DNA from: Brevinematales bacterium
GTDB lineage: Bacteria; Spirochaetota; Brevinematia; Brevinematales; GWF1-51-8
Length of the DNA stretch: 64,000 nt
Assembly (NCBI GenBank): GCA_013177895.1
Contig: JABLXV010000017.1
Span: forward strand, 1 to 64,000
Direction of reading: 5' to 3'
Each line of letters begins with the position of its first letter. Position 1 is the stretch's first letter. Both the position numbers and the translations under genes were made by a program. Under the pieces are notes generated by a model. That model made no database searches and had not been told where the DNA came from. It was given only the letters and a program-made list of their open reading frames with translations. Positions 40,857-58,400 of the stretch are shown piece by piece.

Positions 40857-41293
40857 GCTCCGAATGTATATTCTGTAAAATCGCCGCCGGAGAGGAGCAT
40901 GCCTGCCGGATTTTCGAGGACGATATTTCCATCGCGTTTCTCGATATGCGTCCCGTTTTCTACGGGCATACCCTGCTCATCCCAAAAAAACATTTTACGA
41001 CGATTATGGAATTTCCCGACGATATGATCTACGGCTTTTTCTGCAATCTCAAGCTCATTTCCCGCGCGGTCGAGGACGCGATGGGCTCACAGGGGATTTT
41101 CAACGCGATCAACAACAGGATCAGCCAGAGCGTACCGCACCTGCATATCCACATCCTCCCGCGGAGTAAGGGGGACGGGATGCGGCATTTCCTGTGGCCG
41201 AGGAAACAGTACGAAAATATGGACGAGGCGATGAAGACCGCCGATCATATCCGCCGGACGATCGGACGGCTGAAAAACGCGCCTACTGAGTAG
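40853..41293 (+). CDS. HIT-family nucleotide hydrolase
   Basis: 146 residues. Zn-type C5-IF-C8 near the start, FYGHTLLIPKKHF, and the histidine triad HLHIHILP (H96, H98, H100). Such enzymes cleave AMP from nucleotide conjugates (Ap4A, AMP-lysine, AMP-NH2). Translationally coupled to the membrane protein upstream. Its 3' end overlaps the convergent small exported gene by 11 bases. Confidence 0.93.
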   Translation: MSSECIFCKIAAGEEHACRIFEDDISIAFLDMRPVFYGHTLLIPKKHFTTIMEFPDDMIYGFFCNLKLISRAVEDAMGSQGIFNAINNRISQSVPHLHIHILPRSKGDGMRHFLWPRKQYENMDEAMKTADHIRRTIGRLKNAPTE

Positions 41294-41804
41294 GAACCGG
41301 CTGAAGCCCGCTTAACAGACGGGTGAGAAGCTGATGGAACTCGACGGGGCCGGCGAACGATCCCGTGAGCGTTATCGCAAGAATACCTTCTTTTATTCCT
41401 AAAATCCCGCAGTATCCCAAACTGTTTTTACCGGTTTTATCCTGATATGTCCCTGTCATCGCGAACCCGTACATCCCCCCTGTTTCCTCTTCGTAATAAT
41501 CGTCCGGCGCGAACTCGAACGAGAACGTCTGCCGGAAATACCATTCCAGCAGCTTATACGGCGCGGAATTATTCGTACCGAACCCGTTGGAAGAAAGGGT
41601 TTCGAGGGTCAGGAGCATGTTATTCTTCAGCGATTCGCAATACAGGACGCCCCCCTCCGGGTTGGCCTTCCAGCCCTGCGGCAGGTCGATAGAAACGCCC
41701 CCCGCCTCGTAGTAAACCGTCCTGAGATGGGCGATAGCGGGTAGAAAAAGCAGCAGGAGCGCGGCTGTGATAGAACGGGTCAGATAATATTTTTGCGCGG
41801 TCAT
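41283..41804 (-). CDS. Exported PsbP/DUF1795-like protein, single domain
   Basis: 173 residues. A signal-like N-terminus (LLLLFLPAIAHL) and one domain beginning GGVSIDLPQGWKANPEGG, with the same plan as the neighbours: a short strand then (I/V)P-x-x-W, a middle alpha/beta part, and a C-terminal helix EFHQLLTRLLSGLQ. Last gene of the minus-strand run 46667-41283 by position, though an intrinsic terminator (42405-42436) splits the run. The start overlaps the stop of the lipoprotein gene upstream (ATGA). Ligand unknown. Confidence 0.65.
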   Translation of the reverse strand: MTAQKYYLTRSITAALLLLFLPAIAHLRTVYYEAGGVSIDLPQGWKANPEGGVLYCESLKNNMLLTLETLSSNGFGTNNSAPYKLLEWYFRQTFSFEFAPDDYYEEETGGMYGFAMTGTYQDKTGKNSLGYCGILGIKEGILAITLTGSFAGPVEFHQLLTRLLSGLQPVPTQ

Positions 41805-42313
41805 TCGGTAAGTTTAATGGTATTGATGATCGACGGGAGTTGGCTCTCGAACTGCCGGTACTCCTCGACAGGGCCGATAAACATCAGCGAAAGATATCCC
41901 CGCGCCGTTCGGAGCACCATCGCGCGCCCGGCGAGATACACGGTCGGGGTTCCCTTGGTCTGCCCGGTAAACTCGATCTGGTAGAAGTCGATACCGTTGA
42001 CGGTTAACGGCTCTTTCGCGGCGATGGTCGCGGACATCAGGGAATTCGTGACGGAGTATACCGTCTGTTTGATCGCGAGATCGCGGTTGATCATCTCGAG
42101 CGAGGTTTCGGCGATAGGGGAGATGTACAACGTAATCTCCGTACCGGAAAGCGTGGCCACGATGTCGCGGGAGCCCTGCTTTTCGATCTTCCAGTCGTCC
42201 GACGGGAATGTGATACTGATCCCGGCGTCCTTCAGGTTGACCGCCTGAGGAGCGGCGCAGCGGGTGAGCAATAAAAGTCCGGTAATCGATAGAACGATTG
42301 TCAGAAAACGCAT
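41801..42313 (-). CDS. PsbP/DUF1795-like lipoprotein
   Basis: 170 residues. Lipobox LTRC after a hydrophobic segment, then one domain: AGISITFPSDDWKIEKQG, TEITLYISPIAETSLEMI, NGIDFYQIEFTG, YLSLMFIGPVEEYRQFES, and a last helix QLPSIINTIKL. The Trp after P-S-D is shared with the other proteins of the cluster. Start 42313 is chosen because GGGGGT lies a few bases upstream; the ATG four codons earlier has no site. Confidence 0.7.
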   Translation of the reverse strand: MRFLTIVLSITGLLLLTRCAAPQAVNLKDAGISITFPSDDWKIEKQGSRDIVATLSGTEITLYISPIAETSLEMINRDLAIKQTVYSVTNSLMSATIAAKEPLTVNGIDFYQIEFTGQTKGTPTVYLAGRAMVLRTARGYLSLMFIGPVEEYRQFESQLPSIINTIKLTE

Positions 42314-42404
42314 GGTAACCCCCATAATATTAGGATGCCCCCATTAAAGTTCGGTAGCTTATTTTATTTCCTTTAGATTTTTATTATAGCACCAGTATGG
42401 GGCA

Positions 42405-42436
42405 TAAAAATAGGGAACGGCATAACCGTTCCCTAT
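42405..42436 (-). terminator. Terminator of the single-domain exported gene at 42459
   Basis: Perfect stem ATAGGGAACGG / CCGTTCCCTAT with loop CATAA (42410-42436), followed on the minus strand by TTTTTATG. Confidence 0.85.
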
Positions 42437-42458
42437 AAAATGTGCTCGTAAAAGCGAA

Positions 42459-42956
42459 TTATTTAATCTTTTTCAGGCTATCGACGATATCGGCCATAAT
42501 GGTTTCATATTCGTCATAACCGTCTTCCAGAACGTCGATGGTCACGATGGAGTACTTGTCGCCGGCCATAATGACGAATGTGGTGCATATCGCCGTGCCG
42601 TAGCTCTCGTCATCATAGGAATAATCGACATAGTAAATATCCATTCCGCCGACTGTATCGAACCCGGCTTCGCCGGCTTCATAGTCGTCGCCGATATCAT
42701 CGGTGATGTAGTCGAGTATCAGCTGCTTTCCGGCATCCTCATCCTCGGCATCGGCTGCATCGGGGAACTCTTCGATGAAGAACAGCGCCACATCGCCGGG
42801 GGAATAAGCGGAGAGCTTAGCGGTAGTATTTTCGACTTCCCAATCGGACGGAATATCAACCTGTAAATTACCCGATTTGAACTTATACGACTTCGCGAAC
42901 GCGCCGACTGCCGTGAAAACCAGCAAAGCCATCACACCCAAAAGAACTCTTTTCAT
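42459..42956 (-). CDS. Exported PsbP/DUF1795-like protein, single domain
   Basis: 165 residues, signal peptide (LLGVMALLVFTAVGAFA). One domain that could have been cut from the 1009-residue neighbour: LQVDIPSDWEVENTTAKLSA, YSPGDVALFFIEEF, DDIGDDYEAGEAGFDTVGGM, IYYVDYSYDDESYGTAICTT, TIDVLEDGYDEYETI, IVDSLKKIK. Very acidic. It has its own promoter (42989-43017) and terminator (42405-42436), RBS AAGGAG. Family by eye only. Confidence 0.75.
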   Translation of the reverse strand: MKRVLLGVMALLVFTAVGAFAKSYKFKSGNLQVDIPSDWEVENTTAKLSAYSPGDVALFFIEEFPDAADAEDEDAGKQLILDYITDDIGDDYEAGEAGFDTVGGMDIYYVDYSYDDESYGTAICTTFVIMAGDKYSIVTIDVLEDGYDEYETIMADIVDSLKKIK

Positions 42957-42988
42957 ATAGGTCTCCTTAAGTTAAATTACCTAACAAT

Positions 42989-43017
42989 AATCTATCACTC
43001 ATCCGCAAATACTTCAA
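42989..43017 (-). promoter_or_regulatory. Promoter of the single-domain exported gene
   Basis: Minus strand: TTGAAG (43012-43017), 17-base spacer, TAGATT (42989-42994), 33 bases before the ATG at 42956. Confidence 0.5.
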
Positions 43018-43032
43018 CTTTTTTGAAAATAT

Positions 43033-46000
43033 TTATTGAGCCCACGGATGCAGAATTCCATCGTACGGGACACGGATGACTTCGATCGATTCGTTGACCT
43101 TGTCCATGATCTCCTTATACTTTTTCATATCAGGTTGAAGGATATCCTCGACATAGATACTGATCCCGTTATCGGTATCGATCGCTATCGCGCGGCAAAC
43201 TGCCGTCAGGGTAGTATCAACCTTGTAATCAAAGTTAATGATCATCGCGTCTTTCCCGTTGAATTTGACCGCTTTCGCATCCTTCACCGTGAAGGAATAG
43301 AACCCGGCTCCGGTCAGGAAATCGGATAATGCTTTTTTACTATCGAGCGATTTGATATTCAGGTAATCGTCCTGATAGGTATATATCTTCAGTATGACCG
43401 CGCCGTCGCCGGAAGCGGAATAGAACTGGTAATCGTTCTGCGTCGAACCGTATGGCTGGTTCTCGGTGGAGAAGTTATCGGGCACCCATATTTTGAGTCT
43501 CGAGGTATTGACCATATAGAACTTGCCCTTCACTTTGCTGACGTCGGTTCCGCCATCGGTAACAGGAGCTGACTTCTCGTCATAGTACTGTACGCTTGCG
43601 AGAATTCCCTCGATAGCGTCCTTGTACGGGTCGGCTTCTTTACGGATTCCGTCGAAAATGACCATACTGATACCCTTACCGGTGTCGATCGCATGCACTG
43701 TGACATCGATCTCGCCGAACGAGGCGTCGGAGTAGGTCATAAAGAACTTCATCGCGTCCATTCCGCCGATTTTTTCCTTACCTTTATCCTGAAGCTGATA
43801 ATCCATGCTGGCGTAATAATGGTCCTTCAGCGACTTATCCACTTCCTTGAGGAGATCCGCGCTTTTCTTATAGTCCTTGAGCGACTTATCGTTCAGGGGA
43901 AGTACGTATAAGATGATCGAGGAATTCGGGGAGAAGGACGACAGATCGGACTCATAGGAAGACGTAGCCCAATCGGACGGAATAGTCATCTTCAGGTGCG
44001 ACTTCGAATGCTGGTATTCGCCCGGAGTGGTGTTGACCGTAACGTCGCCGCCTTCGGTATATTCCGAGTCGTTGAATTTAACGCTCGCGAGAATATCGGC
44101 GTTGATCTGATCGTACTCGCTTCCGCCTTCATCGAGGACATCGAAGATGATGGTAGAAATACCTTTTCCGGTATCGATAGCGTAGTACTGGCAGTGGATA
44201 TCGCCGTAGGACTCGTCGGAGTAGCTGAACGGCAGCGATATCGCGTCCATTCCGCCGACCGACGTTAATTCCATATCGCCGAATGTCAGCTCATAGCTGT
44301 ATGCGTCTTTCGCGAAACTCTTGAATTCGTCGAGAAAATCCTCTTCGGACGCATAATCGTCGAACGACTTCTTATTCATCGGTTCGACATAAAGCAGTAC
44401 CGTATCGTTGGGAGAGTATCCCGAAAGTTTATTCGGGGGGTTGTCTACTTCCCAGCTTGCGGGAATCTGTAGTTCGATGCAGGAATTGCCCGCGATATAG
44501 GTCTTATTGCCCGTTTCATCGCCGGTAAGATTCTCGCCGCCGTCCAAGGGACCGGAGTCGTTGAATTTGACGCTTGCGAGAATAGCGGCGTTGATCTGTT
44601 CATAATCGCTGCCGCCCTCATCGAGCACATCGAAAATAACAGTCGATATGCCTTTCCCGGTATCGATACCGTAGTATTCGCAGGAAATATCGCCGTAGGA
44701 ATCGTCATGGTAGGTAAACGGCACCGACACGGCGGGCATTCCGCCGACAGTCGTTTCCTTGAGCTTACCGAATGTCAATTCATAGCTATACTCGCCCTTC
44801 GCGAACTTTTCCATATCCTTCTTCAGCTCATCCTTCGACTGATAATCGTTGAACGCTTTATCGTTCATTCTTTCGACATAAAGGAGTACCGTATCGTTGG
44901 GGGAATAACCGGAAAGTTTCCCGGAATAATTATCCACCGGCCAATCGGTAGGTATATTCAGTTCGAGGTAAGTACCCTTCACGATATGATTCTGGGTGTC
45001 CGTCAGGGCGACAGTTTGACCGCCGTCGCCTGCATTGGCGAGACTGGCGAGCATCTTTTCCGCGACCGGTAAGTACTCGTCGAGCCCTTCCTCGAGAATA
45101 TCGTAGGTAAATACGGCGATACCCTTACCGGTTTCCAGCGCGATAGTCATTGAAACCGCTTTCCCGTAACTACCGTCGATATAGTCATATTCGATCTTGT
45201 ACGCCTTCATCCCGTTAATTTCGGTCTCGCCCTTAGTTTTAACATCGAAATCGTCGCCGATATCGTCCGCGATATAGTCATGCACCGTATCGTAGGCTTT
45301 CTTGCTGAAATCGCTCCACGATTTATCGGAAAGTTTTTCGACTATAATCAGAGCCACATCGCCGTCGGAATAGGAATCGAGACGGTTGACGTCGTTCAGG
45401 GTATCCCATGCCGTGGGGATCCACACCTTCAGGCCCGATTTCTCATGGGTGACCATTTTCCCCTCGAGATCGGGGGTCACCGATTCCGCGGAATATTTAA
45501 CGCTTGCGAGAATTTTATCGATAAGCGCCTTGTAATCTTCCTTTCCGTCCGTAAGCATATCGACAGTCAGCATGGCCATGCCTTTCTCAGTCTCGACCAC
45601 GATCAGCATGACTTCGGCTTTCCCGTACTCGCCGTCCACATAGGAGAATGTCCAATAATTCGCCTTAAACTCTCCCACAGTAATCGCGCTGTAGTTCCCG
45701 AGTTCGAGATCGTCTCCGCCATATTCCGTATCGATATAATCTTTCAGCGAGGTTTTAAGGTCTTTCCCCTCGCTGAGTTCGAACGGATCGACATAAAACA
45801 GAACGATATCCCCGGGAGAGTAAGCGCTTAGGGTGTTTTTCTGCGCGGTCACCTGCCAGTCGCCGGGGAAAGAAATCTCGATATGCGCCCCGGAAACCGT
45901 ATATTTGGTCATCGATTCCGCGCTGTCTGTTTGTGCCATCGGGATACATGAAAATCCGCGCATATCGTATGCGAATTCTTTCGAGACCGTACGTACCCTT

Positions 46001-46062
46001 TCGGCAAAACCGCCGTTCAAAGCGCATAAGACTGTTACTAATGCTGTTAAAAATATCTTCAT
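43033..46062 (-). CDS. Exported protein of six tandem PsbP/DUF1795-like domains
   Basis: 1009 residues. Signal peptide, then six repeats of about 155 residues, each with (L/I)xxxIPxxW, YSPxDxxLxYV, a D/E-rich helix, GGM..., Y.D.SYG, DTGKGIS..IFDVLDEG and ILASVKF. Repeats 3 and 4 are the closest pair (both have SYELTFG and ILASVKFNDS); repeat 6 is the most changed. Strongly acidic. Single-domain relatives lie on both sides (41283-42956, 46107-46667). The ATG at 46062 follows GGGAGGT; a GTG one codon earlier is too close to it. Function unknown; a ligand- or cofactor-binding scaffold is only a guess. Confidence 0.8.
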   Translation of the reverse strand: MKIFLTALVTVLCALNGGFAERVRTVSKEFAYDMRGFSCIPMAQTDSAESMTKYTVSGAHIEISFPGDWQVTAQKNTLSAYSPGDIVLFYVDPFELSEGKDLKTSLKDYIDTEYGGDDLELGNYSAITVGEFKANYWTFSYVDGEYGKAEVMLIVVETEKGMAMLTVDMLTDGKEDYKALIDKILASVKYSAESVTPDLEGKMVTHEKSGLKVWIPTAWDTLNDVNRLDSYSDGDVALIIVEKLSDKSWSDFSKKAYDTVHDYIADDIGDDFDVKTKGETEINGMKAYKIEYDYIDGSYGKAVSMTIALETGKGIAVFTYDILEEGLDEYLPVAEKMLASLANAGDGGQTVALTDTQNHIVKGTYLELNIPTDWPVDNYSGKLSGYSPNDTVLLYVERMNDKAFNDYQSKDELKKDMEKFAKGEYSYELTFGKLKETTVGGMPAVSVPFTYHDDSYGDISCEYYGIDTGKGISTVIFDVLDEGGSDYEQINAAILASVKFNDSGPLDGGENLTGDETGNKTYIAGNSCIELQIPASWEVDNPPNKLSGYSPNDTVLLYVEPMNKKSFDDYASEEDFLDEFKSFAKDAYSYELTFGDMELTSVGGMDAISLPFSYSDESYGDIHCQYYAIDTGKGISTIIFDVLDEGGSEYDQINADILASVKFNDSEYTEGGDVTVNTTPGEYQHSKSHLKMTIPSDWATSSYESDLSSFSPNSSIILYVLPLNDKSLKDYKKSADLLKEVDKSLKDHYYASMDYQLQDKGKEKIGGMDAMKFFMTYSDASFGEIDVTVHAIDTGKGISMVIFDGIRKEADPYKDAIEGILASVQYYDEKSAPVTDGGTDVSKVKGKFYMVNTSRLKIWVPDNFSTENQPYGSTQNDYQFYSASGDGAVILKIYTYQDDYLNIKSLDSKKALSDFLTGAGFYSFTVKDAKAVKFNGKDAMIINFDYKVDTTLTAVCRAIAIDTDNGISIYVEDILQPDMKKYKEIMDKVNESIEVIRVPYDGILHPWAQ

Positions 46063-46106
46063 CACAACCTCCCGGGTTATGAAATAATATGCTTCAACTG
46101 AAAAAA

Positions 46107-46667
46107 TTACTTAACCGCTACGGTCGCCTTGATATCGCTGAGAGCTTTCTGATAATCTTTGAGCCCGTCTTCGAGTACGTCGAAGGTCAGCATGGTGATA
46201 CCCTTACCGGTTTCGACCGCGTAGGTATAACATACGGCCTTACCGTAGTCGGCGTCTTCATAGGAATAATTGAAATAATAGGCGTTGATACCGTTTATCT
46301 TCTCTTCGCCTTTTTTGCTTACCTTATAATCGGGACCCAAATCATTCTTCAGGTACTCATTCATCTTGCTCTCCGCTTTAGCCATAAAGTCTTTCCATGA
46401 TTCGGAGGAGAGTTCCTGTACCTGGAGAAGAACTATGTCGCCGGGGCTGTAAACACGAAGCATGTTCTCTTCTTCGCTGACTTCCCAATCGGAGGGAACG
46501 CTAAACAAGATACCCGCATAGGACAGATCTCCGCTTTTAACGGCGGCGGCATTCCCGGTCTTCCCGTCGACGGGAGCCGTGCCTTTACCGTCGGCCTTGT
46601 CCTTCCCGCCGCACCCCAAAGTAACCAACCCAACTAATACTAATGCCGCAATAACGTGTCTTTTCAT
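46107..46667 (-). CDS. PsbP/DUF1795-like lipoprotein, first gene of the cluster
   Basis: 186 residues. Lipobox VTLGC, a Lys/Asp/Gly-rich linker (KDKADGKGTAPVDGKTG), then one domain: GILFSVPSDWEVSEEENML, YSPGDIVLLQVQEL, YLKNDLGPDYKVSKKGEEKI, YYFNYSYEDADYGKAVCYTY, TGKGITMLTFDVLEDGLKDY. Domain sequence is near to repeats 1 and 2 of the large protein downstream (41 bases on). It has a strong promoter at 46696-46723 and RBS AAGGAG, and probably leads the transcript for the 1009-residue gene. Confidence 0.78.
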   Translation of the reverse strand: MKRHVIAALVLVGLVTLGCGGKDKADGKGTAPVDGKTGNAAAVKSGDLSYAGILFSVPSDWEVSEEENMLRVYSPGDIVLLQVQELSSESWKDFMAKAESKMNEYLKNDLGPDYKVSKKGEEKINGINAYYFNYSYEDADYGKAVCYTYAVETGKGITMLTFDVLEDGLKDYQKALSDIKATVAVK

Positions 46668-46695: not shown

Positions 46696-46723
46696 ATTAT
46701 AGAGGAAATTTAAAAAATTTCAA
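46696..46723 (-). promoter_or_regulatory. Promoter of the PsbP-like cluster
   Basis: Minus strand: TTGAAA (46718-46723), 16-base spacer, TATAAT (46696-46701), about 28 bases before the ATG at 46667. Confidence 0.7.
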
Positions 46724-46767: not shown

Positions 46768-46998
46768 ATGGATATGCAGAAATTAACCGAATTATTGAAC
46801 GATTTGCCGGAATGGATCGACCTGCCGAAGACTGAAAAATACATCGACCTCTTCATCAAGGACACATCGCCTATGGATGTTTTTATATCGCGGGACGATA
46901 TGAAAAAAGTACTTCTAAAGGATAAAGTGCTGGCTACCCACTTTGTGACAAATTATGTGATGAAGGATAATGACCTCAGGGAGTTGGGACATTCGTGA
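46768..46998 (+). CDS. Small cytosolic protein, unknown function
   Basis: 76 residues, no signal or membrane segment: LTELLNDLPEWIDLPKTEKY, then DMKKVLLKDKVLATHF. RBS AGGAGGG about seven bases before the ATG supports it as a real gene. The last 23 bases overlap the end of the convergent 766-residue gene. No family recognised. Confidence 0.65.
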   Translation: MDMQKLTELLNDLPEWIDLPKTEKYIDLFIKDTSPMDVFISRDDMKKVLLKDKVLATHFVTNYVMKDNDLRELGHS

Positions 46999-49276
46999 TA
47001 GTAATCTGCACACCCTTGCCGGCCATAGCCCCCTTTATCATCGCGATATTGCTTCCGATAGACGGGAGCAGCTCCTTCTTGGGGGCGATATGCCACGCGA
47101 GTTCGTAGCACTCCTTCGCGGGGACGAGACGGTTGTCCAGATAGCAGGCATACCCCTCGGCGAGCAACCCGTTATACAGCAGGATTTGGTAGTTCAGGCG
47201 GAGGAAGCCGGCCGCGTCCTTTTTCAATTGGGTGAAAATCTCCATCGGGCCGAACATCGCCTCGTATTCGAACGCCTCCCGCAGGCAGAGGATATCCTTC
47301 TTAACAGCGGGGATTTCTGTGTCCGTCAGGGTTTTGTTGATTCTCGCGACAGCGGAAATATACTCGTACTGCGTGATTTTAGCCTTGTTCTTCGCGTATA
47401 AGTCGTTCAGTCGCTGGAATATTTCAGGCTGGATATTTGCCGATAACGACATATATCCGGTGATACGCACGATCGCGCCGAGGAATAACCCGTTCTTCTC
47501 GAACTCGACGCTTTTCTGGAGAATTTTATCCGCTATCGCTTCTGTCTTTCCCTTTTTCAGCTCCGCGACGGACTGCGAGAAGAAGGAATAATCCTTATCG
47601 ATATAATAAACCATGAAGCAGGTGAGGGCGTAGTTTTCATAGTCGAAGTTGCTGAAGTAGACCGAGGAGATATTCCGCAGGTATTTCGACGTATCCCTCA
47701 GGAATTCGAGGGTTTTCAGGTAATGCTGCGGGAGGTGGCTGCTTTTTTCAAAGGAATAGAATTTTAATATATCGCCGTAGTATGACTGCGGGAGATTGGT
47801 GATTCCGAGGTCGTCCGTATAATAACTCCATGTTACCGCGTCGAGCGAACTCTGCGCGTACTCCTTCCACCCCGGCGCGTCGGAAAATTCCTGCGCGGAT
47901 AACGCGATCATACCGCTAAGGAGGAGTACGATGATCGCGGGGAGTTTCTTTCCGCCGCCGCCCTTCGGCTTCTTCGCGCCTTTATCAGCGTTCGGCTTGA
48001 TCGGTGGATTTTTCACCGCCTTGGGCTTCGGCTGAGCCTTTTTTACCGGTTTCGGCGCCGGTTTTACGGGAATAGATGTCTTAGGGGCGTGCCTGACCGT
48101 CGACGGTTTCTTTTCCGCCTCGGCGGGTTTCCTCGGAGCCGGTTTCTTTTTCGCTGGCGCGGACTTTTTCGGCGCGGGTTTCGTCCCGGCGTCCGTTTCC
48201 ATAACATCGTAATCGTTCTCCAAATTCCACCGCGCCATCCTCCGCGCAAGCTCGCGGCGGCGTTTTTCACGGAGGTACAACCCTATCAGCACGACGAGTA
48301 TGATTAATAATAGAATAAGGAGCCACCACCACGGGAAACCCGTCCCGCCGTCTGCGCCCGTACCGGATGTGCCCGCCGTCTGCGCGTTCGTGTTCGTCCC
48401 GATACCCTGCATTATATTCGTGATCAGGTTGCTGTATTTCGACAGGATACTGACTGTGTTGGTGTTCGTCGGTTCGGGCTGGCCGGGTATGATGATATGG
48501 ATATTGGTATACAGCGGCAGGAGCGGTAGTTCGCCGATCGGCTCGAGCATGAGAAATTTATTCTGGATGGACGGTTCTTTGGTGACCACGAGGCGGATGA
48601 TGGGCTGGGAACGCACGTCCTCCGCCGTTCTGGGATAGACGATGACGAGGAACGAGTCGGCGGGCTGGTTTTTCGATACGGTCACGCTCGTGCCGCTCAC
48701 GGTGAACGATTTGAATATGTTTCCCTGCGTGAAGTATTTTTCCAGCCGCGCGATAGGTATTTTATTCTCGTTGAGGTAGTGGATCATATTGAGGAGCGGG
48801 AGGTTCTCGCTTTTTACGAGCACGACGAGCGCGTTGGTCAGGAGGCCGCTCTCCCATGAGACCGTCATACTCCCGGCGGTCTCGTTCACCGCGCTGGGTA
48901 CGAACCCGTTCTCCAGCTCGAATACGGTACGGATGCACTCGGTGAGGTAGAATTGCAGTTTATCGCTGAATCCCACCCTGAGCGCGTTGGAGAACGTCTC
49001 GATAGTTTTCAGGTAGAGCTTTTTATTATAGAGTTCCTTGCCCTGGAGGTAGACCATCTGGAACTCGGTGTACTTATCGTACATTTTTTCCAGGAGTTCG
49101 GGCGCGCGCAGGTCGAGAGGGTAGTTGTCCATATACTCTTTCAGTATCTCGACCGCTTTGACGTAATGTTTTTTATTATACCATTCGAGAGCCTGATCGT
49201 ATCCGGCGGGATCGGCTTGGCTGTAGGAGAGTCCCGCGATGAAGATCAGCAGGGGTAGTACGTAACGGATTTTCAT
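46976..49276 (-). CDS. Membrane-spanning TPR fusion protein with a Lys/Pro/Ala linker
   Basis: 766 residues: signal peptide (1-19); TPR-like repeats (about 25-120, ALEWYNKKHYVKAVEILKEY and LYNKKLYLKTIETFSNAL); a strand-rich part; a T/N-rich stretch (265-300); a transmembrane helix (316-335) with a basic border KRRRELARR; a linker of Lys, Pro and Ala (about 360-443); a second hydrophobic segment (446-461, PAIIVLLLSGMIALSAQ) that looks like a signal peptide; then a second helical-repeat domain (about 465-766). It looks like two exported proteins fused. Overlaps the PorV-like gene by four bases. It may tie the inner membrane to the surface system encoded upstream. Confidence 0.75.
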   Translation of the reverse strand: MKIRYVLPLLIFIAGLSYSQADPAGYDQALEWYNKKHYVKAVEILKEYMDNYPLDLRAPELLEKMYDKYTEFQMVYLQGKELYNKKLYLKTIETFSNALRVGFSDKLQFYLTECIRTVFELENGFVPSAVNETAGSMTVSWESGLLTNALVVLVKSENLPLLNMIHYLNENKIPIARLEKYFTQGNIFKSFTVSGTSVTVSKNQPADSFLVIVYPRTAEDVRSQPIIRLVVTKEPSIQNKFLMLEPIGELPLLPLYTNIHIIIPGQPEPTNTNTVSILSKYSNLITNIMQGIGTNTNAQTAGTSGTGADGGTGFPWWWLLILLLIILVVLIGLYLREKRRRELARRMARWNLENDYDVMETDAGTKPAPKKSAPAKKKPAPRKPAEAEKKPSTVRHAPKTSIPVKPAPKPVKKAQPKPKAVKNPPIKPNADKGAKKPKGGGGKKLPAIIVLLLSGMIALSAQEFSDAPGWKEYAQSSLDAVTWSYYTDDLGITNLPQSYYGDILKFYSFEKSSHLPQHYLKTLEFLRDTSKYLRNISSVYFSNFDYENYALTCFMVYYIDKDYSFFSQSVAELKKGKTEAIADKILQKSVEFEKNGLFLGAIVRITGYMSLSANIQPEIFQRLNDLYAKNKAKITQYEYISAVARINKTLTDTEIPAVKKDILCLREAFEYEAMFGPMEIFTQLKKDAAGFLRLNYQILLYNGLLAEGYACYLDNRLVPAKECYELAWHIAPKKELLPSIGSNIAMIKGAMAGKGVQITITNVPTP

Positions 49277-50424
49277 TGGGACGCCCCTTTATCGCTCTCG
49301 ACCATCTGGTTGAGTTTCATCAGTTTTTCCAGATCGTCGAGCTTTTTCTTTACCAGTTTATTTTCGGGATCAATGGCGAGCGCCTTGAGCCATTTCTCCT
49401 TCGCAAGCTCGTAGTCGCCGTGGAGATAATGATAAATGCCCTGCTGGTAATACTGCGATACCTGGTCGACGAATACGGGAAAATCGACGTACAGCGAGAA
49501 GTTATGATTATTCCCCAGCGCGCCGAGGTACGAGAATGCGTAATCCAGCCGGAGGTCGTTGAAGTACTCGGGATAGCGCAGGCCGAGGCCGAACGCGAGG
49601 TTGCCGGTATCCCGTCCGAGGTTGAACCCGGTACGCAGGATCAGGACATTGAACAGGGTATACTCGATACCCATTTTATACAGGAACGGCCGCCCGTATT
49701 CGAGCGCGACGTCGAGCGACAGGTATAAATCCTTAGCGAGCCCCGCCGAGATACCGAGCGTGCCCTTGAGGGGCGCGGTCGTATCGCCGGTGAACCCGAT
49801 ATTTTGGAGGGCGAACCCCGCGTTGATGGGCATCCTGAACAGGTCGCTGTCGTACTTGAAGCCCAGACGCTGGAGGGTGAACGTGTAATTGATGCCGAGG
49901 TCGAGGGTGAGTCCCCATGTCCCGAAGTCGGCAAGCCCTCTGCCGATCACTCCCGCGCCGATACCCACCGAGAACCCGGTCAGGAAGTCGAACAATAACC
50001 CGCCGTCCATCGAGACCGCGGCCTTCCAGCAGATGTCGTGGGGCTGGTACTCCGACAGCAGCATCCCGTAGGAGTCGTAATGGCTGAATCCGCCGTAGTC
50101 CACATAGTACAGGCTCGTACCGACCACGAAGTCGTATATTTTCAACGCGCCGGAGAGGTAGCACGCGTAGGCGTTATCGATCCATGACTGGTACATGAAC
50201 GACAGCGCGAAGTTTTCGATCGTGTTCATCGCGGCGGGATTGTACTCGATCGCGGTGCTGTCGCCGATGATCGACGTATAGCTGTCGCCGAGGCCGATCG
50301 CGCGGGCGCTCTTCGGAATCTTGAGGAAGTCCGATTCCGAGGTCAGCGGATATATTATGGAAATAAAGACAAACATCAGGCAGATGATCCATCCGGCAGC
50401 GCGCGAACCGATATTCCGGCTCAA
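49273..50424 (-). CDS. PorV/UPF0164-like outer-membrane protein with a TPR tail
   Basis: 383 residues. Signal segment, then the family opening FLKIPKSARAIGLGDSYTS and EYNPAAMNTIENFALSFMY, followed by a barrel of alternating strands (LSLDVALEYGRPFLYKMGIEY, NLAFGLGLRYPEYF), and a C-terminal TPR (QGIYHYLHGDYELAKEKWL). UPF0164 proteins are FadL-like barrels known in treponemes; PorV proteins of Bacteroidota belong to the same large group and serve type IX secretion. Start is TTG 50424 with AGGAG six bases before. Overlaps the TPR fusion gene downstream. Confidence 0.85.
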   Translation of the reverse strand: MSRNIGSRAAGWIICLMFVFISIIYPLTSESDFLKIPKSARAIGLGDSYTSIIGDSTAIEYNPAAMNTIENFALSFMYQSWIDNAYACYLSGALKIYDFVVGTSLYYVDYGGFSHYDSYGMLLSEYQPHDICWKAAVSMDGGLLFDFLTGFSVGIGAGVIGRGLADFGTWGLTLDLGINYTFTLQRLGFKYDSDLFRMPINAGFALQNIGFTGDTTAPLKGTLGISAGLAKDLYLSLDVALEYGRPFLYKMGIEYTLFNVLILRTGFNLGRDTGNLAFGLGLRYPEYFNDLRLDYAFSYLGALGNNHNFSLYVDFPVFVDQVSQYYQQGIYHYLHGDYELAKEKWLKALAIDPENKLVKKKLDDLEKLMKLNQMVESDKGASQ

Positions 50425-50433
50425 ACCGTTCTC

Positions 50434-51666
50434 CTATTTCACCATTATTTTCCGTACTTCTTTCAAATTCTCGACATCGACGACTATGAAGTAGATGCCG
50501 GTCTGCGCCGGTATCCCCTGATCGTCCGTGCCGTCCCACCCGTACACCGTATTACCGATCTCGCCCTCGTAGACGTGCCGGACGATATCGCCCGCTATCG
50601 AATACACGGTGATCTTGCCCGGTTTGCCGAGCGTCTTTTCGGGGAGCTTGATATATGCCGAACCCGGCGGGATAATATTATTCATCACAATCGTCTCGTA
50701 ACCCTGTCCGTAAATACCCTTGAGCAGGTAGGTATAATTTGTAATATAGTTCAGCCCGTCGATCTCGAGGAAGAACGCCGTATAGTTGCCGGACTTGACC
50801 GCGTCCTCGGGGATTTTCGCCTTATAGAGGTTGGGCGACACCTCGATCATCGGTACGCCCGCGTCGGCGGGATTCCCCCCCGCGCCGTCCGGCAGACTGT
50901 CGACCGCGTACCAGAGATTCACAGTGGCCGCGCGTACCGGCGTATTCCGCAGTACGGCGTAGATAAAGTTGTCTATCTTGCGGAGGTACTGCGTCGCGTT
51001 AAAAATATGGATCGTGTCGATCGCGTCGCTCGCGTAGAGGTCGACGATCTGATTCGGCGGGATAACCCGCACGGTGAACGACGTCCCTGCGTGGGTTTCG
51101 CCGCCGTAGGATACCCCGTTATATCCGGTGTATGTCCCCGCGATATGATTCGAATTGCTGAGAGTCGTCCCGCCGATAGTAAAGTACCCCATCGTGTTGG
51201 TCGGCGCGTCGGCGGGGATATCCACTACCAGCACCGCGTGGAATATCGCGCCCACCCCGAACAGCGCGAACGGGATGGCGTAATTCGTCCCGACGTCGGC
51301 GGATGCCACCTCGAAGTGGTAATTCCACGGCGAGCCGGTATACCCGGGGGAGTTCGAGAACGACGAGACGAACAAAGCCGCGTCGTTATCCGCGTCGTTG
51401 CCGAGGTTGGTCATATAGAGGTCGATACGCGCCGAGTAGTTCGGGTAGCCGTTATACGCGGCGAGCGAATAAATCCCGTCTATCCCGTAGATACTCCCCA
51501 TCGTCAGCGAGGTGTCCATGATATAATTCGTGAAGGACGTGCCCCAGTAAAAAAAGTGGAGCTGCGAGTAATTGGTGAGCACCGTACCGGAAAGGGTTCC
51601 GGCGGCTCCGAAGGACAGCGTGCAGGTGCAGAAAACAAGCAGAAAGGTTGCCGCGAGCCTATTCAT
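50434..51666 (-). CDS. Exported protein with a C-terminal FlgD-like Ig domain
   Basis: 410 residues. Signal peptide, beta-rich T/N-rich body (TNYIMDTSLT, PTNTMGYFTIGGTTLS), a central RVIPPNQIVDLYASD segment, and at the end a FlgD-Ig domain: ITVYSIAGDIVRHVYEGEIG, WDGTDDQGIPAQTGIYF, EVRKIMVK. Such endings are found on secreted proteins of type IX-like systems, where they act as sorting signals, and on FlgD. It precedes the PorV-like gene by nine bases and overlaps the F5/8C gene upstream by eight. Confidence 0.78.
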   Translation of the reverse strand: MNRLAATFLLVFCTCTLSFGAAGTLSGTVLTNYSQLHFFYWGTSFTNYIMDTSLTMGSIYGIDGIYSLAAYNGYPNYSARIDLYMTNLGNDADNDAALFVSSFSNSPGYTGSPWNYHFEVASADVGTNYAIPFALFGVGAIFHAVLVVDIPADAPTNTMGYFTIGGTTLSNSNHIAGTYTGYNGVSYGGETHAGTSFTVRVIPPNQIVDLYASDAIDTIHIFNATQYLRKIDNFIYAVLRNTPVRAATVNLWYAVDSLPDGAGGNPADAGVPMIEVSPNLYKAKIPEDAVKSGNYTAFFLEIDGLNYITNYTYLLKGIYGQGYETIVMNNIIPPGSAYIKLPEKTLGKPGKITVYSIAGDIVRHVYEGEIGNTVYGWDGTDDQGIPAQTGIYFIVVDVENLKEVRKIMVK

Positions 51667-52666
51667 AAGCCTCCATCTCCATTAATTCCACATAGTTCTT
51701 ATAATCCTGCAGGGCGTGGATAGACGTATTCTTATCGATCCATACCCCGATAAATACCGCGTCGAACGATACCGGGAACTCGTCCGTCATAATCGGGGAG
51801 TTATCCGGCGCGGCGGAACTCTTATAGCCCGTATCCTTCCGCTCGAAATATTCCCACTTCACCCCGTCCATGCTGTACATGATATAGTAGGACAGCGGAT
51901 AGTAATTCGCGTTCCATATCACTTTTATGCTCTTGAGGCGGTGTGTCCCGAGGAGATTGATGATGACGTACTGGTTCTCCATCCCCACCTCGGTGCTGAC
52001 CGCCATCCCCTTGTACCATTCCACCAAGCCGTCGTTGACCCTCGTGATAGCCGGAGTAACATCATAGACGAATTTGCTTTCGGGGAGACGGTTGAATGTG
52101 CCGGAGACCGGTTTATTGAGCGCGGCGTTAAAAAGCGGGGTAGTGAACGATTTCGAGAACGCCGTGTCCTTGACCTTGAACTCCGCGGTAAATTCCGTCC
52201 CGGAGGGCAGCCCTGAGAACACGGCCTCGCCCTGCTTCTTCAGCTCGATCCGCTGGTAGAACGCGATGACATGATTGGTCGTCAGACAGCATTCGACAAA
52301 CACGTCCTGCGCGGACGCGAGGCTGAATGTGACCTTTTTCGGCTCGACCGATATAATTTTCACATCGACCGGGAGCTTCAGGGTCAGCTTACCCTGCTCG
52401 ATTATTTTCTTATTCCCGTCTTTGACGATATAGCCGCACTCGCCTTCGGGGAGCGACAGCGGGACGGTATGCTCCTGCATATCGTCTATCAGCAGGGCGG
52501 AATTGGTCGCAGACTTATTATAAATAATAAAGACGACGGGTTTAGGCAGAGTCTTCATATTCTCAAGCCGCAGTACCGCGGACCACCCGTCCTGGTATTT
52601 TAATAGGACATCGCTCCAGCAAAACACCGGAAGAAATAAAAAAACCATTCCGAATATTTTCATCAT
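51659..52666 (-). CDS. Exported discoidin (F5/8 type C)-like protein
   Basis: 335 residues. Signal peptide (IFGMVFLFLPVFCWS), an N-terminal beta domain (about 20-185) and a C-terminal F5/8C-like galactose-binding fold (about 190-335): LNKPVSGTFNRLPES, ITRVNDGLVEWYKGMAVS, YVIINLLGTHRLKSIKVIW, YYIMYSMDGVKWEYFERKD. These domains bind carbohydrate or other ligands at the surface. Overlaps the FlgD-Ig gene downstream. RBS GAGGT. Confidence 0.8.
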   Translation of the reverse strand: MMKIFGMVFLFLPVFCWSDVLLKYQDGWSAVLRLENMKTLPKPVVFIIYNKSATNSALLIDDMQEHTVPLSLPEGECGYIVKDGNKKIIEQGKLTLKLPVDVKIISVEPKKVTFSLASAQDVFVECCLTTNHVIAFYQRIELKKQGEAVFSGLPSGTEFTAEFKVKDTAFSKSFTTPLFNAALNKPVSGTFNRLPESKFVYDVTPAITRVNDGLVEWYKGMAVSTEVGMENQYVIINLLGTHRLKSIKVIWNANYYPLSYYIMYSMDGVKWEYFERKDTGYKSSAAPDNSPIMTDEFPVSFDAVFIGVWIDKNTSIHALQDYKNYVELMEMEAYE

Positions 52667-52693
52667 ACAACCTCATTTAATAGTCTGGAACCG

Positions 52694-52705
52694 CCCGCCG
52701 GCGGG
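52694..52705. repeat. GC-rich palindrome
   Basis: CCCGCCGGCGGG, a perfect 12-base palindrome just upstream of the F5/8C gene and beside the dispersed inverted-repeat element. Confidence 0.5.
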
Positions 52706-52724
52706 ATTGATTACGAACAATGAA

Positions 52725-52845
52725 TGTCGCTGCGAGGACGCGCTTCAATGTTTTATTGAAGCGTGCCGGAAGCAGTCTATCTAATTCATTAGCAATATCA
52801 GAATAGATTGCTTCGGTAATCCTGACGGATTAACTCGCAATGACA
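52725..52845. repeat. Dispersed inverted-repeat element, copy 2
   Basis: Related to 29443-29543. It runs from TGTCGCTGCGAGGACG to CTCGCAATGACA, with inner arms GGAAGCAGTCT and AGATTGCTTCGG, and carries an extra perfect stem CGCTTCAAT-GTTTT-ATTGAAGCG (52741-52763) absent from copy 1. The rest of 52667-52923 shows no coding signal. Confidence 0.65.
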
Positions 52846-52923
52846 AAAACAGTTCTACATCTTACCCTCAGGGGCGGCTCCATCTATTGTTTCAAGCCTT
52901 AATACCGTAATCCGTCAAATCCG

Positions 52924-53979
52924 CTACTTCACGTAGTTCACGTAGTAGAACGCGCCCTTCCCGGCCGCGACAACCGTACTGCCGTTGAGCGGTGTCGTTG
53001 TGAACGGCGCGAAGATGACGCTTGCTCCGTTAGTGGACGCACCCGGGTCTCCCGCAGCGTTAGTGGCAAACGCGGCCGCCGCCCATGGATATACTCCGCC
53101 CCATGCGTTGGACTTCAGACTGTCGGTCTTCAGGGTCACGAAGTTCGTGTTGAATACGTCGACAATCTTGACGCTTGTCGCGGGAACCGTTCCGCCGTTG
53201 GAATAGTTCAGGCGCCAAATCAGTATACCGCCGGGGAACGGACGGGTGACATCCCCGCTGAACGGGCCCGCGTTGGAGATGATCAGGTATTTTGACATCA
53301 CCATGAGCGCGGCCTGTACGGTGACTCTCCAGTTCGTGTTGCCCGCGCCGGTGGTGTTCGTCAGGATAACTTTACCGTATCCCGCCGCCCACTTAGCCAT
53401 ATTCCCGCCGTAGACAGTGGTGTTATAGCCGGTATAATTGGTGGCTATCGAGGTGACATTCGGCCCGGTCGCCACGCATTTGAACTGCGCGTAGGACGAG
53501 TCGACTTCGTTACCGGGGACATAGACATGGAACCAGATGGTCGTGACCGCCGCTCCGGGCGAGATGGAAACGGTGAGAGGCAAACCGTGAGCGCCGCCCG
53601 AGGTGTTGGTGAAATCATACACCCATGTGCCCCATTGCGCGGCGGAATGGAATTCCGTAGCGTTAAACTGGTAGTTCACCGCGAGGTTTCCGACGTTTTC
53701 AAACGAGGTATGATTGTACGCGTGGGTTCCCGGAGCGATGTTGGTGCTGTTGTTACCCGACCAAACGCCTCCGTAGTTCGTACCGACAAACGCCATGCCC
53801 GTCGCGACATTTGTCGACATTCCTCCGCCCCAAGTCATAGTGGCGGTGTTGGTGATAGGCGTGCCGGCGGGAGTGGGCGCGGCCTCAGCCGTGCGTCCGC
53901 CGAACGGGGAAACCACCATCACTGCCGCGATCGCCGCCGTAAACAGGAACAGCGATACCAGGCTTTTTCTGATCTTCAT
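52924..53979 (-). CDS. T/N/G-rich exported surface protein with a DUF11-like end
   Basis: 351 residues. Signal peptide (about 1-33, ending TAEAAP). The mature protein is very rich in Thr, Asn, Gly and Ala (GTPITNTATMTWGGGMSTN, SIATNYTGYNTTVYGGN). Toward the end, LIWRLNYSNGGTVPATSVKI and VDVFNTNFVTLKTD look like the DUF11 type of repeat found in cell-surface proteins. Third gene of the operon that starts with the 1792-residue protein, 20 bases after the gene upstream. RBS AGGAGG. Confidence 0.75.
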   Translation of the reverse strand: MKIRKSLVSLFLFTAAIAAVMVVSPFGGRTAEAAPTPAGTPITNTATMTWGGGMSTNVATGMAFVGTNYGGVWSGNNSTNIAPGTHAYNHTSFENVGNLAVNYQFNATEFHSAAQWGTWVYDFTNTSGGAHGLPLTVSISPGAAVTTIWFHVYVPGNEVDSSYAQFKCVATGPNVTSIATNYTGYNTTVYGGNMAKWAAGYGKVILTNTTGAGNTNWRVTVQAALMVMSKYLIISNAGPFSGDVTRPFPGGILIWRLNYSNGGTVPATSVKIVDVFNTNFVTLKTDSLKSNAWGGVYPWAAAAFATNAAGDPGASTNGASVIFAPFTTTPLNGSTVVAAGKGAFYYVNYVK

Positions 53980-53999
53980 ACTATCCTCCTAAAAACAGT

Positions 54000-55475
54000 T
54001 TATTTTGCTATTACCGCAATTTCACATAGAAACAGGTTCTTCCACGGCTGCCATTTTTTCTCACGGGTTCCCCTCGGCGCCTTCACCGCGATATATATCC
54101 TGATGAACCGCGCGGACGTGTTCAGCGGGACGGAGTGCAGGACGACATAGTCCCCCATCGGGGAACGCATATCCGTGCCCTGAGACGCGTCGAGATGCTC
54201 CTTGAGCGTCGTCCACGATTTCCCGTCGATACTCACGTCGATACGGTAGTCCTTGCTGAACGACAGCGCCCACCAGTAAATATCCAGCCGCTTGACCGCG
54301 GATACGCTCCCGAGGTCGACGACCGCGTACTGGTCGGAATTGTCCGCGTTGAACGAGATCGCCATACCGCCGAAGTAGTTCAGACTCCCGTCGGTGAGCT
54401 TGTCGATCGATGTTTCCCCGTAGCCGAGCTCCTTGATAGTCGGGTCGACATGGTTGAACGTGCCCCATACCTTTTTACCGAACGCGATATTGTTCGGCGG
54501 GGTGGAGAATGTCAACTGCGGCGTCTGGATAACATTACCCTGCGCGTCCTTCAGGGTGAGCCGGTAAAAATACCCCGTCTCCTGCTGTAATCCGCTGATA
54601 TCGATATCCCGCGATAAGGCGAGACCTTTATCTTCCTTGATCTTTTTCATCGCGGCGGGGGACTGCCCCATGAAGAGTTCGTATGAAGTGGGGATATTCG
54701 ACTCGTAGAACAGTTTCGCGCTGAACGGGGTAATATTTTTCGCGGCCAGCTGCCAGAACTCCGGCAGGGGGATACCCGTCGTCTTGAAGGCGAACTGTTT
54801 ACTTTCGAGACGGGTTCCGTCGGGGGATTCGCTCAGGATTACGAAGATGTAGTCCGAGCCCCTGAGGAGCCCGCTGAGGGTGACCGAGTGATTGGTGATA
54901 TAGTTCACCTCGATCAGGGTCTCCTTCGTCCCGTTATATTTTTTCTGGTAATGGAACTGGTCCTGCGACTTGATTTTCGTCTTCCATGTGACGACCGCCG
55001 AACTGTCCGAAATCCCGGAGATTTTCACATCGAATATTTCGTTCTTCCCCGACGCCTTCTCGAAGCACTCGATCTCCCCGATGGAGTATTCCGACGCGGA
55101 TTCGAGGATTATCCGCACAAATAGCGCGGAGATATTTTCGGCCTTGACGTCTATCATATCCGTCTTGATATTCTTATACTCCGCCGCGGTATTCCATGAG
55201 ATAAAATCGTCGGATATCTGGAGCTTAAAGCTCTTAAACTCCGTCACCTTCGAGAAATATATTTTTATCGACCCGATATCCTTCAACGCGCCCATCTGGA
55301 GCGAGAAAATATTCTCGCCGGGCTTGAATTTCGTGAAAGTTTTCTTATCGCCGTCGATCAGATTTTTCGCGTCCGGCTGGTTTAGCATCACCGACGGGAT
55401 TTTTATCGAGCCGTAAGCGTGTACGGCGATCAGCGCGGAAAGTGTCAGCAGTATTCCTGTCATGGGCAGTTTCAT
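54000..55475 (-). CDS. Exported protein with two F5/8C-like domains and Fn3 repeats
   Basis: 491 residues. Signal peptide, an F5/8C-like domain (about 25-135, LIDGDKKTFTKFKPG, IKIYFSKVTEFKSFKLQIS), Fn3-like repeats (about 145-330, KISGISDSSAVVTWKTK, ITPFSAKLFYESNIPTSYEL) and a second F5/8C domain (about 335-485, KVWGTFNHVDPTIKELG, AVVDLGSVSAVKRLDIYWW, YRIDVSIDGKSWTTLKEHL). It shares the C-terminal domain type with 51659-52666. A carbohydrate- or matrix-binding surface protein is likely. It starts 11 bases after the giant surface protein. Confidence 0.82.
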   Translation of the reverse strand: MKLPMTGILLTLSALIAVHAYGSIKIPSVMLNQPDAKNLIDGDKKTFTKFKPGENIFSLQMGALKDIGSIKIYFSKVTEFKSFKLQISDDFISWNTAAEYKNIKTDMIDVKAENISALFVRIILESASEYSIGEIECFEKASGKNEIFDVKISGISDSSAVVTWKTKIKSQDQFHYQKKYNGTKETLIEVNYITNHSVTLSGLLRGSDYIFVILSESPDGTRLESKQFAFKTTGIPLPEFWQLAAKNITPFSAKLFYESNIPTSYELFMGQSPAAMKKIKEDKGLALSRDIDISGLQQETGYFYRLTLKDAQGNVIQTPQLTFSTPPNNIAFGKKVWGTFNHVDPTIKELGYGETSIDKLTDGSLNYFGGMAISFNADNSDQYAVVDLGSVSAVKRLDIYWWALSFSKDYRIDVSIDGKSWTTLKEHLDASQGTDMRSPMGDYVVLHSVPLNTSARFIRIYIAVKAPRGTREKKWQPWKNLFLCEIAVIAK

Positions 55476-55486
55476 TTATTCCATCC

Positions 55487-58400
55487 TTAGTTTATTGTTA
55501 CTCCGATATACAGCGTCCGGTTGTCTTCGTTCGGGTAAACCAAATCCTTCTTCCACCGCACCCAAACCGCGTTCGTGGGATTCGCGCTATAATTCGTGGA
55601 ATTGTAGCTCTGGTCGGGGTTTGTCAACTGCGAGAACTGAACCGTCCATCCCGCCGCGGTTCCGGCGTAATTGGTGTAGTACACGGTATTCGCGGGGATT
55701 TTATCGTAGAGCGTCACCCCATACGCCCGCCCGTTCGATAAGCTGGAGTATTCGAGCTGGTAGAGGACCAGCGAACCGGGCAGGGCGAGATTGGTGCTCA
55801 TCACCTGCAAGCTATGCACCGTCTTCGAGAGCGTCAGATACGGCACGCCGCATATCTGGTACGACGTGTTCGATACCGCGCCGTCGACAGGCCCGTCGTT
55901 CCAGCTCGCGACCTTGATGCCCATCGTGAAGGCGCCGGAGTACGGCCCGGGCGCGGATGGGGAAAGCCCTTCCAGCGCGAGCTTGACCGTGTTCCCGTCC
56001 TTCATCGTCGCGGGCACGTCCGCCGTGATATAAAATTTCCACTTTTTGACCGCGCCCGTGTCAGGGATTTGGGCCGACCCGTTCCATTGCCAGCGGCTCG
56101 AACCGAGATAGGTCAGATTACCCACTAATGATTCGTCGCCGTCATATCCCGCGCTCGAACCGTCCGCCCAGAGCTTCAGGGTCACGTCCGTATTGATCGC
56201 GGTCGCGTTATTTTTAACCGTAATCATCTCGAGCGTGTCCGCCGCGCCGTTATTGTTCGGGATAGAGAACTCCAGCACGAGATTGTTCGTCGTGCTGATA
56301 TCGAGGCTGTAATTGGATACGTTCAGGAGGCTCATCTCGACCGCGCGGAACCCGTTGAGATAGCCGGGAGTCCCGTGGATAGCGGACGAGGCTTGGTAAT
56401 TCGCGGGGGACTGTCCTCCCCACGGGTTGATCATCTCGACCGTGTTGCTCGCGGAGGTGATATTGTTCGTATAGTCGATGATCGCGATAATCGTGGTGTT
56501 CTCGCGCAGGATGAACGGGGTATCCGCGGCGGCGAGGCCGTTCAGCGCGATCTTCGTCCCGGAAGCGGGTGCCATAATCGGCGCGGACGGGTTCTCGGCG
56601 TAGAAGTTCGTGAATGTCTGCGCGGTAGAGACTCCGCCCGATATCAGAAGCATATTCCCCGCCGCGAGGGACGAGCCCCGGAAGAACGACAGGTTGTCAT
56701 TCCCCTGCGCGGTCGATATGTTCCATCCCGACGGGGTGATACCGGCCGCGGAATTATTATAGATTTCGATAAATTCGTAGAGATAGCTGTTGACCCCCGC
56801 CCATTTCGCGTCGGTATACTCGTGCGCGATAAAGTACCCCTGTTTGACCGGCATCGACTGCGAATTGGTTATCCCCTTGTCTTTCGGCCCGATGGATTCG
56901 CCCGGGACGGACAGCATCCCGATACTGTCCGGCAGGATGTACGGCTTGACCGTCTGCCCGGCGGTAATATTGGTCGCGAGCATGAGCGAGAAGTAAACGG
57001 TCATTTTCCCGCCGGACGGGGAGTCGGCGATCAGATTATTCGCAAGATTTTTAAAGACGTACCCGTTGACCGCGTTGGAGTAAGTCCCCGCGCCCATCAG
57101 CAGGTTACCGGCCGCCGAATTATTGGGGTAGCCGTAATTGAGCTGCCCCGCGCCGTTGCCGTTCCATAGCTTCGCTTCCACAATACCGTTAGTCGTGATA
57201 TTCCCGCCGAGGCAGACGACGATATTGGAGAGACGGTCTCCCGACGCGGCGGCATCGTTCTCCGGGTCGGGGAGCAGGATTTCGAACGCGAGCATGATCG
57301 TCCCGGCGTATGCGCCGTTGGTCTGCGTGATATTCGATATATTCTGCGCGAGGATGAATTTATTGCCCCATTTCGGGGTGCAGGTATGGTCGATCGTCCA
57401 GTCGGATACGAGGTTGTTATCGTCGCCGTCGGGGAGAAGCACGAGGGACGACCCCTCGGTATAGTTCGTGATTGAGACGAATGCGCCCGACGGCCATATT
57501 GCGGCGGTAACCGCGCGGTCGTCGTCCGCGCCCGCGTCCGCGCCGTATGCGACAAAGTCCATCAGCGTGTACTGATTCTCCATCGTGGGGGAGCAGTACA
57601 GGCCGAGTTCGTCCTGCGCGGTCGAGAGCTGCGCCGCGCCCCATTGCCCGTATAAAAGGCCTCGCCCGTCGGAGAAGTCGAGGTCGTTCGCGCCCGCCCC
57701 GTCCCATAGCACGATAAAGTTCGACGACGGGAGGACGACCGTGTTGGTGATTTTGTACACCGGGTAGGCGGTGTCGTAATCGTGAATAGCCCATCCGGTG
57801 AGGTAGACGGACTGGCTCTCGCGGTTGAACAGTTCGACCCATTGCCCGTCGGTATCCGCGCCCGGCGGGTCGAACATCAATTCGTTGATAACGACGTCGG
57901 GACGGTAGATCACTATCCATCCGCTCGTCCCGCCGATATTCGTGAACTGCTGGTCGCGGACTGCGATTTTATTGGAACCGAGGTAATTGATGACGACGAA
58001 GTTGGTCGATACGCCCTGCACCCACGGGGTGTTCGACACGACATAGGCCGCGCCCCCGAATAGAACCTCCGAGATTATCGCGCGGTCGAAGTCGTACACC
58101 TTACCGCCGAGCGGCGCGAGGGCCTTGACCGTCACCGGGAACGGCATCCCCGCGAGGGCGTTAGTCGGGCATGTCACATGGAACGCGGTCTCGATAATAC
58201 GCCCGTTCGTATTGAAGCAGAGATTCATATAAACATTATTGACGCCGTCGGAAAACTCCCCCGACGCGGGGTCGTTGGTGGATACGCAGTCCACGAAATT
58301 GGGCGCGCCGGAAATCTGCTGGAGGTTATATATCCCGAGGCCGTCCACCACGCGCCCGGTATCCACGACTATATTCAGTTTCTGCGGTATCGATGTAAAT

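Follow-up and report, generated by a model that had tools for sequence, protein, structure and literature searches.

Introduction

What would domains of the PsbP type be doing in the envelope of a presumably non-photosynthetic spirochaete, and what would be served by stringing six of them together in one chain? To our knowledge, PsbP-fold domains are known almost exclusively in single copy, docked onto larger assemblies, and PsbP itself serves photosystem II as a scaffold or assembly factor. The question is raised by a cluster at 41283-46667 of the window (the whole stretch of 64,000 nucleotides analysed here), whose host genus comprises little-known subsurface spirochaetes. The cluster consists of five consecutive minus-strand ORFs, g5 to g1, all for predicted exported proteins (Table 1). 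A sequence-only reading had described such a run with one domain type throughout and six domains in a 1009-residue protein; the ORF listing places the genes exactly at these coordinates, and alignments and profile agree on a single domain type with ten copies in total, six of which are held by g4 alone.

Layout, signals and export

Table 1. Features of the cluster, listed in the direction of the minus strand; positions refer to the window.
Feature	Position	Strand	Description	Basis or detail
Promoter-like TTGAAA-16-TATAAT	46696..46723	-	5' of g5	11/12 consensus positions
g5	46107..46667	-	Single-domain PsbP-like protein, predicted lipoprotein, 186 aa	ORF; lipobox LGC
g4	43033..46065	-	Six-domain PsbP-like protein, predicted exported	1010 aa (GTG) or 1009 (adjacent ATG)
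g4 d1	45487..45915	-	Residues 51-193	Profile match
g4 d2	45031..45465	-	Residues 201-345	Profile match
g4 d3	44557..45000	-	Residues 356-503	Profile match
g4 d4	44068..44511	-	Residues 519-666	Domain modelled alone
g4 d5	43579..44025	-	Residues 681-829	Profile match
g4 d6	43078..43527	-	Residues 847-996; most divergent	Profile i-E 7e-17
g3	42459..42956	-	Single-domain protein, predicted exported, 165 aa	
Terminator-like hairpin (intrinsic)	42410..42436	-	3' of g3	12-bp stem, T-rich tail
g2	41801..42325	-	Divergent single-domain protein, predicted lipoprotein, 174 aa	Core profile E 1e-7
g1	41283..41804	-	Divergent single-domain protein, predicted exported, 173 aa	Core profile E 1e-9

Three promoter or terminator signals had been read along the run. 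The promoter-like site of g5, which is kept in 4/4 species, and the terminator-like hairpin of g3 stand, while a promoter at g3 was not listed by the promoter scan and is suggested by conserved TTGAA and TGATA blocks upstream of that gene. The start of g1 overlaps the end of g2. The likely transcription units are g5-g4, g3, and g2-g1. An Rfam scan and a tRNA scan gave no match.

The N-termini were read by eye, and export and location of all five products are predictions from these signal sequences. Two lipoboxes had been proposed. That of g5 (LGC) is clear; that of g2 (LLTRC) has an unusual residue, Arg, at position -1, and nevertheless its Cys is conserved in 4/4 species. Both proteins are probably lipid-held at a membrane. 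Three cleavable-type signals had been proposed as well; the N-termini of g4, g3, and g1 are signal-peptide-like by inspection, and a free periplasmic location is probable for g3 and g1.

Several features lie around the cluster. A 76-codon ORF at 46768-46998 on the plus strand, divergent from g5 and preceded by a ribosome-binding-like GGAGGG, is kept in 3/3 sister genomes with 58-81% identity and is probably a real small gene. The minus-strand neighbours at 49273-55475 are exported genes; their products show a UPF0164-like protein with TPR, a C-terminus that is FlgD_ig-like, and discoidin domains in two proteins, one of which also has fibronectin III. Further on, at 55487-60865 of the same strand, a protein of 1792 residues carries lamin-tail, Ig-like, and possible carbohydrate-binding domains.

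Fold and family placement

The AlphaFold2 model of d4, built with 19 aligned relatives, has a mean pLDDT of 95.9 and a pTM of 0.90. When this model was compared with the PDB by Foldseek, PsbP took ranks 1-5 with E about 1e-6 (plant PsbP 1v2b, E 8e-7) and CyanoP 2xb3 matched with a TM of 0.72. Further matches were DcrB (6e8a, E 2.9e-4), Tsi3 (3wa5, E 5.9e-4), mycobacterial Apa (5zxa), Mog1 (1jhs), EagT6 (6xrf), and SciW. A profile search against PDB sequences put DcrB on top with a weak, full-length match (E 0.05) and PsbP at E 0.26; g4 alone had no match under E 0.09 among these sequences.

All five window proteins are under every Pfam cut-off, PF01789 included. For example, g5 matched PsbP_2 with an E of 1.8e-4, under the cut-off, and the matches to LpqN (PF10738) were likewise weak and under the cut-off. 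PHROGs, NCBIfam, and PADLOC gave no meaningful match. Two single-domain paralogues of the same genome, on contigs C36 and C26, do exceed the PF01789 cut-off (24.0 and 26.6 vs 23.5 bits), and the C36 paralogue is linked to the window domains by profile (E 2e-11); hence, we place the set within the Mog1p/PsbP-like fold, in its bacterial PsbP branch, with the fold itself well supported by the model. The PsbP/DUF1795-like fold first proposed is thereby borne out by Foldseek, by the two paralogues, and by the weak DcrB profile match, with PsbP as the closer name: PsbP and CyanoP lead the structural comparison, and DcrB and Mog1 come after. Membership of the DUF1795 family was rejected, as the Pfam model of DcrB/DUF1795 (PF08786) found no match in the window proteins or their own genome with a positive E. 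coli control; the kinship with DUF1795 is by fold only.

Relations among the domains and the architecture of g4

The domains of g4 are about 145-155 residues long and were recovered as six profile matches with i-E from 7e-17 to 5e-62. When local alignments were scored against shuffled controls, the core group (g3, g5, and d1-d5) proved related pairwise at Z of about 15-85, and d6 is related to the core domains at Z 8-15. The closest pair is d3 and d4, which are 65% identical. The proteins of g1 and g2 are marginal in pairwise alignment and are both found by a core-domain profile, with E values that refer to the search of a small local set. The motifs IPxxW, YSPxD, GGM, Y.D..YG, and DTGKG are marks of the main group, in agreement with the sequence-only reading; d6, g1, and g2 are without most of them.

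Across the diverse alignment, the sole invariant residue is one Pro and invariant polar residues are absent, which disfavours an active site. Three residues are invariant within the core group, namely S36, Y100, and D127 in d4 numbering, and this subgroup could therefore have a ligand or catalytic site.

The model of full-length g4, for which the alignment held only four sequences, shows six folded domains joined by linkers of pLDDT <50 (residues 194-200, 346-355, 504-518, 667-682, and 831-843) and has a pTM of 0.30; the model therefore holds no fixed domain arrangement. As far as a four-sequence alignment can carry it, g4 is likely to resemble beads on a string with flexible linkers, with which the earlier description as a 'multivalent periplasmic or surface binder' is consistent.

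Distribution and history

The five-gene cluster is present in the same order in 4/4 sampled species of one Brevinematales genus, with g5 and g1 orthologs in all four; the sister records are Brevinematales bacterium DeMMO6_14 and Spirochaetes bacteria GWF1_49_6 and GWF1_51_8. A search for relatives with an alignment narrower than the diverse one (A2) found only the three sister genomes. The family profile (A3) had matches in 24 of 393 Spirochaetota genomes, with single-domain frames only outside the genus, and the PF01789 model had matches in 18 of the 393, with every frame at most 240 aa. No tandem copies in one chain were seen outside the genus among the 393 genomes. The spread across Spirochaetota, which had been named as a check on the sequence-only reading, is, within this sample, that of a cluster seen in one genus with single-domain relatives beyond, and PsbP-family members do occur outside photosynthetic organisms in this phylum.

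The genome of the window itself holds 14 strong domains across nine genes, together with five weaker loci. At least four further clear single-domain genes of the family lie elsewhere in this genome, so that the family extends past the window. No recurrent partner gene was found beside the scattered paralogues examined. The sister genomes, GWF1_51_8 among them, have an extra two-domain protein of 315 aa, for which the genome of the window yielded no ortholog. A truncated g3-like copy of 119 aa, with the N-terminal half of the domain gone, follows g3 in genome G001 (L027:13981-14340, plus strand). In genome G003 (L030:305-1489, plus strand), a tandem pair of single-domain copies is identical in protein and matches at 669/680 bases, upstream sequence included; it is either a recent duplication or an assembly effect.

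A domain phylogeny had likewise been named as a means of ordering the duplications. In the tree, the domains of the different species fall into one clade per position, and the duplications therefore predate the species split; d3 and d4 are again the closest pair. The g4 of GWF1_51_8 has five domains, with a single domain in place of d3 and d4, which groups with d3 at a support of just 82/54, so that a gain of d4 elsewhere and a loss in GWF1_51_8 are both possible.

All five genes of the cluster are under purifying selection, with Nei-Gojobori dN/dS values of 0.07-0.35; those at larger distances are rough, as dS is near saturation there. The most conserved and constrained gene is g3 (dN/dS about 0.1), whose identity with the furthest species is 76%. 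The order of the neighbours at 49273-55475 is kept in the sister genomes, and the region is therefore taken as vertically inherited. A search for plasmid relatives gave no match.

Proposed role and its alternatives

Several proteins of this fold act through protein contacts. A T6SS adaptor role was reported for a protein of Mog1p/PsbP-like fold (PMC3482391), EagR1 has the same fold and has been discussed alongside PsbP and Mog1 (PMC4524185), and Tsi3 in complex with Tse3 blocks the latter (PMC3792639). As protein-protein contacts, these reported roles favour docking here. The chances are about even that the cluster is a lineage-specific expansion of non-catalytic docking modules that act as an envelope scaffold or assembly factor. 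Each domain would be a small, probably non-catalytic module exported from the cytoplasm, and we infer both the lack of catalysis and the binding. The lipid-anchored single domains of g5 and g2 and the free periplasmic ones of g3 and g1 would stand beside g4, whose six modules on flexible linkers might let one molecule bind multiple copies of one partner, or more than one partner, simultaneously. Together, the set could serve an envelope complex in scaffolding or assembly, much as PsbP serves photosystem II; for the scaffold role taken by itself, the case is roughly balanced. The narrower proposal, a genus-specific scaffold in which the six-domain string and its lipid-anchored and free single-domain partners organise an envelope complex, is tentative and more doubtful.

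Some features of the locus would also suit a protein of the cell surface. The acidic g4 (pI 4.4) might be an extracellular or outer-surface adhesin making many weak contacts to minerals, polysaccharide, or other cells; the fold matches include Apa, a fibronectin-binding protein of mycobacteria, and nearby genes encode discoidin, fibronectin-III, lamin-tail, and Ig-like domains. This is unlikely, as g4 has no recognised outer-surface anchor or secretion signal beyond its N-terminal leader and the low dN/dS gives no sign of the diversification frequent in surface adhesins. If the conserved YSPxD, Y.D..YG, and DTGKG turns, which the model places at the ends of strands and which are rich in acidic and polar residues, were binding sites, the domains could instead be envelope binders of small ligands or metals, with tandem copies raising capacity or avidity. 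However, these motifs are absent from d6, g1, and g2 and do not define the whole set, and such a function appears quite unlikely.

Copy number varies, with five vs six domains in g4, the truncated g3-like copy, and the identical tandem pair, as might be expected if the expansion were a near-neutral gene amplification whose tandem copies have no special role. That is very unlikely, given dN/dS far under 1 in all five genes and the separate cross-species clade of every domain position. The fold is also common to Tsi3 and to the Eag chaperones EagT6 and SciW, and a match to a known chaperone family had been set down beforehand as counting against a novel system. The shared fold holds, but the T6SS sheath gene VipB is absent from the four genomes (E. 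coli control positive), PADLOC found no defence system, inheritance is vertical with fixed gene order, and Eag proteins belong to the T6SS whereas the cluster proteins bear export signals. Hence, it is extremely improbable that the cluster supplies a set of immunity proteins for the periplasm or of T6SS effector chaperones.

Comparison with known systems

The docking modules proposed here resemble PsbP, CyanoP, and PsbP-like proteins (PF01789) in fold and, by prediction, in the exported single-domain form, and two paralogues pass the cut-off of that family. The window proteins themselves are under it, and the PsbP members compared are single-domain and mostly photosynthetic, whereas here six domains share one chain in a presumably non-photosynthetic lineage. 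DcrB/DUF1795 proteins (PF08786), Eag included, share the fold and a weak full-length profile match, and DcrB is an exported lipoprotein, as predicted for g5 and g2; they differ in that the cluster has no Pfam match to them and no T6SS sheath gene. Tsi3, a T6SS immunity protein, is of common fold and is periplasmic, as predicted for members of the cluster, but the cluster is without a T6SS or toxin partner and includes a multi-domain form. The mycobacterial fibronectin-binding Apa has the fold in common, and LpqN (PF10738) matches weakly, under the Pfam cut-off; they are single-domain proteins of another phylum. The periplasmic PA1624 of Pseudomonas aeruginosa begins with a Mog1p/PsbP-like domain whose function is unknown (PMC7716261); it has this domain in one copy, joined to an OmpA-like one, in contrast to the tandem array of g4.

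A literature search, with most subscription papers outside its reach, returned no other six-copy string of PsbP domains. The domain itself is not new, but a six-fold string accompanied by conserved single-domain proteins is unseen elsewhere in the sample of 393 Spirochaetota genomes. Set beside the single-domain systems above, it would offer a direct route to the binding partners of non-photosynthetic PsbP domains and a way to ask how tandem copies alter their binding.
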